DNA of 64,000 bases from Pseudomonadota bacterium (GTDB lineage: Bacteria; Desulfobacterota; Binatia; Binatales; Binataceae). The notes under the pieces were generated by a model. The model searched no databases, was not told the DNA's origin, and was given only the letters and a program-made list of their open reading frames with translations. Position 1 is the stretch's first letter; each line of letters opens with the position of its first letter. The stretch covers positions 124,001 to 188,000 of the forward strand of contig JAJPHI010000011.1 in the NCBI GenBank assembly GCA_021325355.1. Direction: 5' to 3'. The translations under genes were made by a program, and so were the position numbers. This document shows, piece after piece, positions 13,150-17,996 of this stretch.

Positions 13150-14433
13150 ATGAGTGTGGCGATGGGAGTTTCCAACCGCAAACAGACCCTCGGCATCCTC
13201 GTCGGCGGCGGACCCGCACCCGGAATCAACGGGGTCATCGCCGCCGCCGCCATCGAGGCGCTCAACAATGGACTCCGCGTCATCGGCCTGCGCGAGGGCT
13301 TTCGCTGGCTGGTCGCGGGCGACACCAGCCACGCGGTCGAGCTGCGCCTCGAGGACGTGAGCCGGATTCATTTCACCGGCGGCTCGGTGCTGCGGACCTC
13401 GCGCACCAATCCGGCGCGCGACGAAGCGAGCCTGCAGCGCGCGCTCTCAAGCCTCCTCGCCCTCGGCATCGATTACCTGGTCTGTATCGGCGGCGATGAC
13501 ACCACCTACGGTGCCTCGCAGATCGCCGCCCGCAGCGACGGGCGCATCGCCGTCGTCACCGTGCCGAAGACCATCGATAACGATCTCCCGCTGCCCGAGA
13601 ATGCGCCGACCTTCGGCTTCGACACGGCGCGCGCCGTCGGCACGGCGATTATCGAAGCCCTGATGGAAGACTCGCGCACCACCGGCCGCTGGTACCTCGC
13701 GGTCACGATGGGCCGCAAGTCGGGCTCGCTGGCGCTCAGTATGTGCAAATCGGCCGGCGCCACCCTGGCGGTTATTCCCGAAGAATTCCAGAGCGAGAAG
13801 ATCGAGCTCAACACGGTCGTCGATACGATTGTCGGCGCGATTATCAAGCGCCGCGCCGCCGGCCGCGACCACGGTGTCGCGGTCATCGCCGAAGGGGTGG
13901 CTGAGCGGATGGATACCGGACAGTTGCTGGCCTCCTCCGGCCCGCAGCGCGATCCCTACGGCCATCTGCATATCGCCGACGTCCCCCTCGGCATCGTACT
14001 GCGCGACCGCGTGCGCGACGCCCTCACCAGGCTCGGCGTCGAAGTGACCGTCGTGGCCAAGGATATCGGCTACGAGCTCCGCTGCGCCAAGCCCTCCGCC
14101 TTCGACGTCGAGTATACGCGCACGCTCGGCTACGGCGCCGTGCATTACCTGCTCGACGGCGGCTCCGGCGCGCTCATCGCGATCGCCGGCGGACGCACCG
14201 TGCCGATCGAATTCAGCCATCTCCTGGACCCTGTCACCGGCCGGGTCCAGGTGCGGATGGTCGACGTGACCACCGAAGCCTATCGCGTGGCCCGCTCCTA
14301 CATGATTCGCCTGGAGCCGTCCGACTTCGCCGAACCCGAGCTCTCGCGTCTCGCCGCCTGCGTCAAGATGACGCCGGAGGCCTTCAAGGAGCGGTTCCTA
14401 GAGTCGACCCTGAACACTTCGCCCGTAGTTTAG
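13150..14433 (+). CDS. 6-phosphofructokinase, PPi-dependent-type signature
   Basis: GILVGGGPAPGINGVIAAA, CIGGDDTTYGA, VPKTIDNDLPL, TMGRKSGSLAL. Confidence 0.92.
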   Translation: MSVAMGVSNRKQTLGILVGGGPAPGINGVIAAAAIEALNNGLRVIGLREGFRWLVAGDTSHAVELRLEDVSRIHFTGGSVLRTSRTNPARDEASLQRALSSLLALGIDYLVCIGGDDTTYGASQIAARSDGRIAVVTVPKTIDNDLPLPENAPTFGFDTARAVGTAIIEALMEDSRTTGRWYLAVTMGRKSGSLALSMCKSAGATLAVIPEEFQSEKIELNTVVDTIVGAIIKRRAAGRDHGVAVIAEGVAERMDTGQLLASSGPQRDPYGHLHIADVPLGIVLRDRVRDALTRLGVEVTVVAKDIGYELRCAKPSAFDVEYTRTLGYGAVHYLLDGGSGALIAIAGGRTVPIEFSHLLDPVTGRVQVRMVDVTTEAYRVARSYMIRLEPSDFAEPELSRLAACVKMTPEAFKERFLESTLNTSPVV

Positions 14434-14504: not shown

Positions 14505-15275
14505 TCAGGTCGGAGCAGCGGCAGAATCCTTCTGCCGCCACCAACGCCATTCCGTGACCAGGGTGGTTGAACTGCCGGGAGGCAGGCGCATTCCGCCGAG
14601 ACGCTCGATTCCCAGAAAGCCCGCGATTAGCTGGCCCAGGTTAATCGCCAACAAAACCCAAAAGGCGATCCATGAGACCGCGTGCGCCGTCGGCAATACA
14701 TAAAAGGTCAGATGGCCGGCCAGCGCGGCGCCGATTAGCGATCCGAGCATCCCGCTGAACTGCAAGAGCACGCGCGCTAACGGCGCCATCGCGAGGTAGC
14801 TGCCGTAGTTCATCTTGAAGCGCGGCTCCAGACCGCCGTAGAGATACGCGTAGTCGTAGGTCACGCCGAGCGCCGTGCCGACCGCGACCTTCAACAGCGG
14901 CTCAAAGGTCGAGACCCATAGCAGCATCCCGAGGATCGCCCGCAGGTTGGAGCTATGGGCGATACCGGCGGCGATCAGAAAGCCGCCGAAAATTGCCAGC
15001 CAGGCCTCCATCAAGAGCGCCCCTGGTACGCCCAGCGTCCGTTGGTAGCGACGGGAATGGAGCCGACGACTGACGGCGCTGACATCGGGGGCGAGGGCGA
15101 GTCGGTCGGCCTGGGGCAGACGCCGAATCCGCTCGGTTACGCGCCGCCACGCTCCGGGTTGATAGCTTCCCTGGTCGAGTGCGGCGGCGATCGTCTGGAG
15201 CTCGCTGCGAATCAGCTCCGTCTCGCTGCCGCCCGCAGTGCCCTCGATACTCGAAACCGCGCTCTCCATCTGCAC
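14505..15275 (-). CDS. hypothetical integral membrane protein
   Basis: Soluble N-terminus then about 4-5 hydrophobic segments (AWLAIFGGFLIAAGIA, ILGMLLWVSTFEPLLKVAV, IAFWVLLAINLGQLIAGFLGI). Confidence 0.7.
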   Translation of the reverse strand: MQMESAVSSIEGTAGGSETELIRSELQTIAAALDQGSYQPGAWRRVTERIRRLPQADRLALAPDVSAVSRRLHSRRYQRTLGVPGALLMEAWLAIFGGFLIAAGIAHSSNLRAILGMLLWVSTFEPLLKVAVGTALGVTYDYAYLYGGLEPRFKMNYGSYLAMAPLARVLLQFSGMLGSLIGAALAGHLTFYVLPTAHAVSWIAFWVLLAINLGQLIAGFLGIERLGGMRLPPGSSTTLVTEWRWWRQKDSAAAPT

Positions 15276-15391
15276 CCCACCGCTATGCGCAAGCTCCGCG
15301 ACGCCGTTTCGTCAGATTATCCGGGACGGCGCTACCGGATTCCCGTCAAGAGCCTCCGTGAGCCGACCGCGTCCGGCCTCGCAATTGCCAC

Positions 15392-16720
15392 TTAATAGTA
15401 GTCCACCGGATCGATCTGACGCTTCGCGCCATACCAGAACAGCAGGTTTTCGGTAAGTCCCTGGATAGTGAACTTGCCCGGCGGCATCAGCAGCCGCTTG
15501 AACATCGATTTGAACGAGTAAAACTCCTTGGTGCAGCGCCAGACCCCTTCCTCGACCTGCTGGGGCGAAAGGTTCTTCGGCACGAACATGCAGCGGAAGT
15601 TATTGGTGTACATGTCCGCATCCGGAATGATCACGCGGCCTTCGTTCTCCAGTTGCGTGCGCATCGGCGTGCCGACGCGCGGCGTAACCGTGTTGAAGAA
15701 GGCCTCGGGCGCCTTGACCTCGTGCAGGAAGCGCAGCGTATCCTCGAAGATTCGCGGGTGATCCTCTTCGAGGCCAAAGAGAAAATTGAGCGAGTAATAG
15801 ATCCCGTAATGTTCCAGGCGCTTCAGCAGCTTCTTGTAGTCCTTGGCGTGGTTCTGGATCTTGTTCATCGACAGCAGGCTGTCCTGACTGATCGATTCCA
15901 CGCCGATATTGACATGAAAGATCCCCGCCTTTGCCGCCAGTTCGAGCAGCTCCTCGTCGTGGTTCGAATTGACCGTCCAGAGACAGGAGAACTTGATATT
16001 GAGCGGTTCCAGAGCGCGGAATAACTCCTTGGCAAACTTGTGCTTGCCAGTGATCTGATCATCGATGAACTGGAAGCGCCGGAAGCCCGTCGCCGCCATC
16101 ACCTGCTTGATCTCTTCGACAATATCGCCGACCGGCCGCGTGCGATAACTCCCGCTGTAGAACACCGGAATCTCGCAGAACGAGCAGCGATACGGACAGC
16201 CGCGACTCGCCTGCACCGGCACTGCCTTGAACAGATAGCGATTCAGCTTCAGGAGCTCGTGGCGCGGTCGCGGCAGGTTCTTGAGGTCATGAAGCTTGTC
16301 CGACTTGTAGATTTGCTTGAGCTTGCCGTCGCGCCAGTCCTGCAAGAGACCCGCCCACACCAGGTCGGCTTCGCCCTGGACCACCGCGTCGGCGTGCTTG
16401 AGCGCCTCGGCGGTCTGCAGCGTGGCATGAAACCCGCCCATCACCACGGGGATACCGCGCTTGCGGAACTCGTCGCCAAGCTGATAGGCGCGCAGCGACG
16501 CCCCGATCGTCGTCGTCATCCCCACCAGATCCCAGCCGCCGTCGAAGTTGACGTCCTCGAGCCGTTCGTCGCACAGCGTGACGTCGTACTCGTCCGGCGT
16601 GAGCCCCGCCATCAACGGGATCATCAGCCCCATGATCAGCCGCCAGCGCGTCTTGTGCGGAGTACCGTCGAGATGCACCGTGGTCGGCTGAACCAGCAGG
16701 ATTCTAGGCTTTTTCCCCAT
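15392..16720 (-). CDS. B12-binding domain radical SAM protein
   Basis: Cobalamin-binding-like N-term (ILLVQP...GMTTTIGASLRAYQLGDEFRKRGIPVVMGGFHAT), CPYRCSFC radical SAM motif. Confidence 0.92.
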   Translation of the reverse strand: MGKKPRILLVQPTTVHLDGTPHKTRWRLIMGLMIPLMAGLTPDEYDVTLCDERLEDVNFDGGWDLVGMTTTIGASLRAYQLGDEFRKRGIPVVMGGFHATLQTAEALKHADAVVQGEADLVWAGLLQDWRDGKLKQIYKSDKLHDLKNLPRPRHELLKLNRYLFKAVPVQASRGCPYRCSFCEIPVFYSGSYRTRPVGDIVEEIKQVMAATGFRRFQFIDDQITGKHKFAKELFRALEPLNIKFSCLWTVNSNHDEELLELAAKAGIFHVNIGVESISQDSLLSMNKIQNHAKDYKKLLKRLEHYGIYYSLNFLFGLEEDHPRIFEDTLRFLHEVKAPEAFFNTVTPRVGTPMRTQLENEGRVIIPDADMYTNNFRCMFVPKNLSPQQVEEGVWRCTKEFYSFKSMFKRLLMPPGKFTIQGLTENLLFWYGAKRQIDPVDYY

Positions 16721-17996
16721 CCCCCAAGATACCTTCCTTGGAACTGACCGCTAGGTTAGCAAAACCGTCGTCGGACTTCACCATCGCGCGCGGCCGATGC
16801 CGTCGGGTCAGCAGCCACAGCACCAGGGCGAAAACATAAGTGCCTGCCGCAGTCCCCCACGCGAACCACCGGAGCCGATCGATCAGCGCCAGCACGACGA
16901 TCACATAAGCGAAGTCGCGGCCGGTCGCCCGTTCCACGCGACCGACCCACTCCGTTCCCAACTCGCTGCCCGCGCGCAGCGCATACTCCACTGCCACTGC
17001 GCAGCAGGCGAAACCAACCAGCAGAGCAATACATAGATAAACATAGGTATTGTCATGACTGGTTCGATAGCATCCGACCATCAACCCGACGAAGACCGCG
17101 ATATGCACCAGATTGTCTGTCAGGACATCCAGTTTGCCGCCGAAGTCCGACTCGACCATCCGCAGGCGGGCGAGCTCGCCGTCAACCCCGTCAATCGTGA
17201 TGCAGACCAGAAACAGCAGCGCCGCCACGAGCCGCACCCAGTAACTCGTTCCGGCCATCAGGAAGGCGCTGAAGAGACCCAAAGCCGTATTTGCCAGGGT
17301 CACCGCATTGGGCGCCACCCCGAAGCGCGCCAGCCAGAGGCTTAGACGCCACGAAAGCTTACGGTCGAAGATGCGCGCCATGAGAGCATCGGTCTCGCGA
17401 CTCTCATCGCGGACGGCGTGCGCGAGGCGGACTTCGGCTTCGCTGCGATCCTCGGGACGGCCATTCAGCGCGAACGGCAAATCGCCCCGGGCGACGAGCG
17501 TTTGTATATCCTTATGAGGACCGCCGCCGAGCGCGCTGAGCAGTTGCCTCGGCCGCCCGATCTTAAGCGATCCGCCGTGTTCCGTATCCGCGGTGATAAT
17601 CTGCAGGCCGTGCGCGCCATTGTCGGCATATTGCGTCAGCGCTCGCTGCAATTGCGCTTTCGCGATCACCAAGTTGCCGCTGACCAGCAGGCACGGAACC
17701 TCGGGATCGAGACCGCCGAGGACGCCCGCCAGCGAATCCACCACCTCGACCCGTTCGCCGCCGCCAAAGGCTTGCAGAGCCGTCCCGACGCTTTCACGCG
17801 CGGCTTGCGGCACCTCCACGATAAAACGCTGGATCCCGACCCGGCGACACACTATCAGCAGGCGTTCCAACAATGGCCGGCCGAAAATCAGGTCCTCGGC
17901 GCGGGAGGGCAGGCGGATTAGTGCAGTATCGATCACGCTGGCTTCGCCATAACTTTCCGAATCTGACCGATGAGTCAATGTAAACCGAGCAGTCAA
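16704..17996 (-). CDS. CDP-alcohol phosphatidyltransferase family protein with N-terminal nucleotidyltransferase-like domain
   Basis: DGVDGELARLRMVESDFGGKLDVLTD matches DxxDGxxAR(x)8G(x)3D(x)3D; about 200-aa N-terminal region resembling a degenerate NTP-transferase; multiple TM. Confidence 0.85.
   Translation of the reverse strand: MTARFTLTHRSDSESYGEASVIDTALIRLPSRAEDLIFGRPLLERLLIVCRRVGIQRFIVEVPQAARESVGTALQAFGGGERVEVVDSLAGVLGGLDPEVPCLLVSGNLVIAKAQLQRALTQYADNGAHGLQIITADTEHGGSLKIGRPRQLLSALGGGPHKDIQTLVARGDLPFALNGRPEDRSEAEVRLAHAVRDESRETDALMARIFDRKLSWRLSLWLARFGVAPNAVTLANTALGLFSAFLMAGTSYWVRLVAALLFLVCITIDGVDGELARLRMVESDFGGKLDVLTDNLVHIAVFVGLMVGCYRTSHDNTYVYLCIALLVGFACCAVAVEYALRAGSELGTEWVGRVERATGRDFAYVIVVLALIDRLRWFAWGTAAGTYVFALVLWLLTRRHRPRAMVKSDDGFANLAVSSKEGILGDGEKA

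Follow-up and report, generated by a model that had tools for sequence, protein, structure and literature searches.

A conserved CDP-alcohol phosphotransferase/radical SAM gene pair in Binataceae and a possible part of the transferase in an inositol-type head-group pathway

Genes and predicted proteins at the locus

The window (the whole stretch of 64,000 nt that was analyzed) originates from a 3.36-Mb assembly of Candidatus Binataceae (Binatota). As shown in Table 1, it contains the three ORFs, all on the minus strand, that had been reported in a first-pass annotation of this DNA. The flanking plus-strand genes encode a pyrophosphate-dependent phosphofructokinase scoring above the curated cut-off (positions 13150–14433) and a cytochrome P450 (18167–19360), whose nearest model, CYP119, was matched below the cut-off.

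Table 1. Features of the locus (positions within the window).
Feature	Position	Strand	Remarks
CDP-alcohol phosphotransferase (CDP-AP) with N-terminal pseudo-nucleotidyltransferase domain	listed ORF 16704–17996; probable gene 16704–17936	−	start GTG, codon 21
N-terminal nucleotidyltransferase-fold domain of CDP-AP (approx. residues 21–200)	17397–17936	−	G-rich loop and acidic metal site both missing
B12-type radical SAM protein	15392–16720	−	CxxxCxxC (RGCPYRCSFCE), no DxHxxG; PF04055, E 1e-18
Membrane protein, judged to lie outside the conserved unit	14505–15275	−	neighbor in the window; no Pfam or NCBIfam family matched

CDP-AP belongs to the class I CDP-alcohol phosphotransferases: it matches PF01066 (E 1.7e-14; 54.9 bits against a cut-off of 22), carries the signature DxxDGxxAR(x8)GxxxDxxxD and has a long-helix domain in its AlphaFold2 model (pLDDT 83.9). 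The signature residues (D269, G270, D272, G273, A276, R277, G286, D290 and D294) were invariant in the 24 sequences compared, which confirmed the intact catalytic motif described in the annotation. Residues 1–18 of the listed ORF were modeled with a pLDDT below 50, and the related proteins begin at the GTG forming codon 21. Residues 1–20 are probably untranslated, so the shorter gene given in Table 1 is the probable one. The 17-nt overlap with the radical SAM gene, earlier taken as a sign of tight coupling, does exist, but it is due to a C-terminal tail that is absent from the relatives, where the two genes are spaced by −4 to +51 nt.

The best fold matches of the model were Archaeoglobus fulgidus IPCT-DIPPS (4mnd) and AF2299 (4o6m), which resemble CDP-AP in two-domain architecture, fold and CDP-AP signature; AF2299 likewise bears an N-terminal cytidylyltransferase-like domain (PMC4634129). 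The structural check that had been proposed for the N-terminal part revealed a nucleotidyltransferase fold closest to 4mnd, from which both the G-rich loop and the acidic DxDxxxDL are missing, in agreement with the earlier description of a degenerate domain. The acidic motif is replaced by LNGRPED (aligned by eye), and the relatives possess a separate nucleotidyltransferase with both motifs. Unlike IPCT-DIPPS, CDP-AP thus has no nucleotidyltransferase site of its own, the intact one being encoded by a separate gene, and its identity as an active bifunctional enzyme of this type (NF041135) was rejected, also on its score (70 bits against a cut-off of 580).

Phosphatidyl- and archaetidyl-inositol phosphate synthases (PIP synthases; NF045883 and NF040950) were rejected as well (50–54 bits against 170–180). 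The RxRAE motif is unconserved in CDP-AP, and a GRD arginine is placed close to the RPER position. The missing RxRAE fits a donor other than CDP-diacylglycerol, although it does not prove one. A second full-length CDP-AP paralog of the same domain layout (approx. 42% identity) was found in genome G000 (contig C20, L114:9830–11218), amid unrelated housekeeping genes.

The assignment of the second ORF to the radical SAM proteins was upheld by its PF04055 match and cysteine motif. Every one of the 35 family genomes carries the gene (82–94% identity); CxxxCxxC was found in 31/31 sequences and DxHxxG was absent. The B12-binding domain PF02310 was matched with 31.3 bits, just under the cut-off of 32.1, and with 39.6 bits, above it, in a class-level homolog. 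HpnJ, HpnR and BchE share with this protein a radical SAM core, partial similarity and probably an N-terminal B12-like domain. However, with 80, 50 and 101 bits, respectively, it lies far under the cut-offs of these NCBIfam equivalogs (577.6, 650 and 481), and all three identities were rejected.

Conservation of the gene pair and of the surrounding module

Comparison of gene coordinates revealed that CDP-AP directly precedes the radical SAM gene in 31/35 family genomes, belonging to 14 genera, with a spacing of −14 to +51 nt at the 23 loci measured. The exceptions are G003 (CDP-AP on another contig), G016 (a broken fragment) and G008 and G027 (CDP-AP gone). The gene order is therefore conserved well beyond the strain, as the annotation had required, and the arrangement is more than chance. 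The third gene does not share this conservation: the membrane protein was detected in just 12/35 family genomes and, outside the source genome, never on the contig carrying the pair. The three-gene locus of the annotation is thus unsupported.

At approx. 22 of 33 loci, a five-gene operon runs divergently from the pair and encodes a HAD protein, a nucleotidyltransferase (NTase), an ATP-grasp protein, a class III aminotransferase and another HAD protein. In eight genomes a single contig shows this module followed by a luciferase-like oxidoreductase (in most), a Gfo/Idh dehydrogenase and then TetR, HpnH, IspA, ADH, SHC and DXR; HpnC/D and HpnE are also present where the stretch extends far enough. 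In the source genome this block is split four ways: the pair (window), HAD-NTase-ATP-grasp (contig C32), aminotransferase-HAD (C35) and Gfo/Idh with the hopanoid operon (C17). The sister families f3 and f7 carry a single operon, HAD-NTase-ATP-grasp-aminotransferase-Gfo/Idh-CDP-AP, with CDP-AP last (in G040 the set spans two contigs), and no close radical SAM relative was found adjoining it there.

The active-site motifs of the module NTase are intact. Its profile matched A. fulgidus inositol-1-phosphate cytidylyltransferase (2xme) over the full length (E 3.7e-11) and aligned with the IPCT domain of 4mnd; MurU scored slightly above 2xme, several sugar nucleotidyltransferases were close, and the similarity extends to sugar-1-phosphate and phosphocholine nucleotidyltransferases. 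The ATP-grasp protein matched the D-Ala-D-Ala ligase, LysX and ITPK folds about equally, so that kinase and ligase are not separable, and its ITPK profile matches were not significant. Both module HADs lack the second Asp of DxD (DFGGT and DL[AG]GT; L138:8224–8955 and L156:9623–10096), which is unusual for phosphatases and makes a simple phosphatase role uncertain. A phosphonolipid route was also considered. The PEP-mutase superfamily is a general one; three matches to it were found in the source genome and none in the cluster.

Co-loss of CDP-AP with inositol-1-phosphate synthase

The three genomes in which CDP-AP is missing or broken (G008, G016 and G027) are also those that lack the aminotransferase among the seven genomes tested for it. 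The ATP-grasp gene is missing from G008 and G027, and G016 retains a copy next to a HAD fragment. Inositol-1-phosphate synthase was missing from the same three genomes and otherwise only from G006, which is 53% complete, and from G020 and G033, whose congeners possess it. Leaving out G006 and treating genomes as independent, its absence was counted in 3/3 module-loss genomes and 2/31 others (Fisher p 0.0017), a value that overstates the case because the genomes are not independent. In the radical SAM tree, the intact G014 is the strongly supported sister of G016 and G027, and G008 branches separately; therefore, at least two losses of the module are likely.

With two single-genome exceptions, inositol-1-phosphate synthase accompanies the genomes carrying the module, as expected of a CDP-inositol-type pathway. 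Its gene lies outside the operon, and class-level relatives that lack the module operon have it too. The other inositol-type CDP-AP of the source genome is present in only 5/15 family genomes tested and is absent from most relatives that keep the synthase; for this reason it cannot account for the co-loss pattern. Elsewhere, inositol-1-phosphate synthase adjoins an ATP-grasp protein matching the inositol 1,3,4-trisphosphate 5/6-kinase domain (L154; G054, contig C113:25000–43000). In family f7 (G052, L158:6774–8660), the gene that comes after it encodes a CDP-AP similar to archaetidylinositol-phosphate synthase; this constitutes a second route to inositol lipids there.

The radical SAM gene does not follow this pattern: it is kept in G008, G016 and G027, which have no working module, beside one HAD gene and the hopanoid operon. 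Mean pairwise identity over eight loci was 89% for the radical SAM protein and 53% for CDP-AP (PanB, 73%; PanC, 68%; CoaX, 83%). A contig scan for close relatives of the radical SAM protein found them only in Binataceae-like assemblies and in two labeled Acidobacteria (84% identity in L107; 76%, partial, in L113), the latter reflecting gene transfer or misbinning. A search of these two genomes for a CDP-AP ortholog gave one weak generic match and no ortholog.

Of the earlier proposal, the conserved gene order stands; the single pathway for both proteins is not supported, because the radical SAM gene, universal in the family and better conserved, persists where CDP-AP, the aminotransferase and inositol-phosphate synthase have been lost, and occurs without a CDP-AP ortholog. 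It is probably co-transcribed with CDP-AP yet functionally separable.

Proposed pathway, alternative readings and known systems

Since two lineages have jointly lost CDP-AP, the aminotransferase and inositol-1-phosphate synthase, CDP-AP most likely performs the final step of a pathway of the CDP-inositol type. On balance, we consider it probable, if by no means secure, that this protein is the membrane transferase of such a head-group pathway and that the head group is modified; with regard to the polar lipid or compatible solute suggested in the annotation, CDP-AP is best read as serving a polar head group of the inositol type.

In such a pathway, inositol phosphate would be supplied by inositol-1-phosphate synthase. 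The Gfo/Idh dehydrogenase and class III aminotransferase would then oxidize and aminate a polyol or cyclitol intermediate, which the ATP-grasp enzyme may phosphorylate or ligate to an amino acid, and the separate intact NTase would form the CDP-alcohol. CDP-AP would pass the phospho-alcohol on to an acceptor, either a lipid or a polyol, and release CMP, with its N-terminal domain as a putative catalytically dead remnant retained for structure or docking, and a HAD enzyme might act on an intermediate or on the product. Given the aminotransferase, Gfo/Idh and ATP-grasp proteins, the head group is predicted to be modified and perhaps to carry an amino group. Class III aminotransferases usually use terminal aldehydes and not ring ketones, which counts against this pathway. 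The substrates, the order of the steps and the lipid nature of the product are predictions for module members that are uncharacterized, and sequence alone does not reveal the head group.

The most likely role predicted for the radical SAM protein is modification of a membrane lipid at an unactivated carbon; as a best guess, hopanoids are the first candidate because the hopanoid operon adjoins. Homologs with 35–39% identity occur in other families. A lipid-A-type acyltransferase adjoins the class-level homolog in L145, and an acyltransferase homolog is similarly placed in L146 and L147. In genomes with these more distant radical SAM homologs, no SHC was found in G040, weak partial SHC-domain matches were found in G037 and G053, and HpnH above the cut-off was absent from all three; therefore, hopanoids are not the sole possible substrate of the wider radical SAM group.

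It is quite possible, at somewhat less than even chances, that CDP-AP and the radical SAM protein have a promoter in common and no pathway, their adjacency following from genome order alone. The unequal conservation of the two proteins (89% against 53% mean pairwise identity), their separate loss and the occurrence of the radical SAM gene without CDP-AP in the Acidobacteria-labeled assemblies all agree with this. The retention of adjacency at coupling distances in 31/35 genomes of 14 genera argues otherwise, and the acyltransferase neighbors of the class-level homologs maintain a lipid theme. This reading is compatible with the CDP-inositol-type role of CDP-AP, and the likelihoods given here for the alternatives are not exclusive.

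The position of the module next to the hopanoid operon leaves room for its building a hopanoid head group, with an HpnO-like aminotransferase forming aminobacteriohopanetriol, CDP-AP adding a phospho-alcohol to the side chain and the radical SAM enzyme modifying the product. The module is contiguous with TetR-HpnH-IspA-ADH-SHC-DXR on one contig in eight genomes and partly in two more, squalene-hopene cyclase is present in 35/35 family genomes, and the radical SAM gene and one HAD gene stay by the hopanoid operon in the three genomes where the module was deleted or decayed. CDP-AP homologs in families f5, f6 and f7 adjoin HpnJ, with HpnI and HpnK near. To our knowledge, CDP-AP is not a described hopanoid gene.

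We nevertheless regard this reading as unlikely: loss of CDP-AP and the aminotransferase coincides with loss of inositol-phosphate synthase and not of hopanoid genes, and G040 (99% complete) has the HAD, NTase, ATP-grasp, aminotransferase, Gfo/Idh and CDP-AP genes on two contigs with no SHC match and no HpnH above the cut-off. The argument from hopanoid-free genomes draws on this one genome; G036, without SHC, was not counted because it has HpnH and is 74% complete. Judged by genome co-occurrence, the presence of the module aminotransferase in G040 also counts, as one genome, against its being HpnO, although enzymes other than HpnO may perform this step (PMC12583986). The homologs beside HpnJ (L115 in f7, L122 in f5 and L125 in f6) share the two-domain layout of CDP-AP, and their loci also encode HpnI and HpnK; in L115 an HpnL-like protein, below the cut-off, is a further neighbor.

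Di-inositol phosphate is a solute of hyperthermophiles, and in this soil lineage a soluble di-inositol-phosphate-type phosphodiester is a still more doubtful product of CDP-AP than a hopanoid derivative; the unconserved RxRAE, part of the inositol-phosphate acceptor site in PIP synthases, also argues weakly against an inositol-phosphate acceptor, while in favor of such a solute neither of the nearest solved relatives, AF2299 and A. fulgidus DIPP synthase, acts on lipids and the CDP-AP model is without the extra C-terminal helices typical of lipid-acceptor enzymes (PMC4634129).

The CDP-inositol-type reading has a precedent in the alternative inositol-lipid cluster proposed for Bacteroidetes, in which an NTase, a CDP-AP and a HAD protein are encoded near inositol-phosphate synthase, with functions unconfirmed there (PMC9246714). 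The Binataceae set resembles both this cluster and, as far as it is cited there, the CDP-inositol donor pathway of Jorge et al. 2015 in its enzyme classes and in the co-occurrence of inositol-phosphate synthase, and its NTase profile matches IPCT over the full length, with sugar nucleotidyltransferases scoring similarly. Beyond the Bacteroidetes cluster it has the ATP-grasp protein, the class III aminotransferase and Gfo/Idh; it also differs in that its CDP-AP has a dead nucleotidyltransferase domain, inositol-phosphate synthase lies outside the cluster and hopanoid genes adjoin. The gene set resembles a known type of inositol-lipid pathway in enlarged form.

A literature search on the radical SAM/CDP-AP combination and on Binatota lipid biosynthesis found no reports. 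We offer as a speculation, rather improbable in its complete form, that an amino- or aminoacyl-inositol phospholipid not yet described (or a phospho-linked hopanoid) is produced in Binataceae along a CDP-alcohol route by means of the dead-domain CDP-AP, and that this lipid or a hopanoid is alkylated or rearranged by the family-specific, highly conserved B12 radical SAM enzyme.

Among bacteria, inositol lipids are comparatively uncommon (PMC9246714). If the CDP-inositol-type reading is true, an uncultured soil phylum would join the few lineages known to have the CDP-inositol donor route, here in an expanded form, and the module would constitute a defined gene set open to testing. The radical SAM protein is an orphan enzyme conserved above PanB, PanC and CoaX of the same loci. 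Since hopanoids serve as geological biomarkers, a hopanoid-modifying enzyme would matter beyond microbiology.
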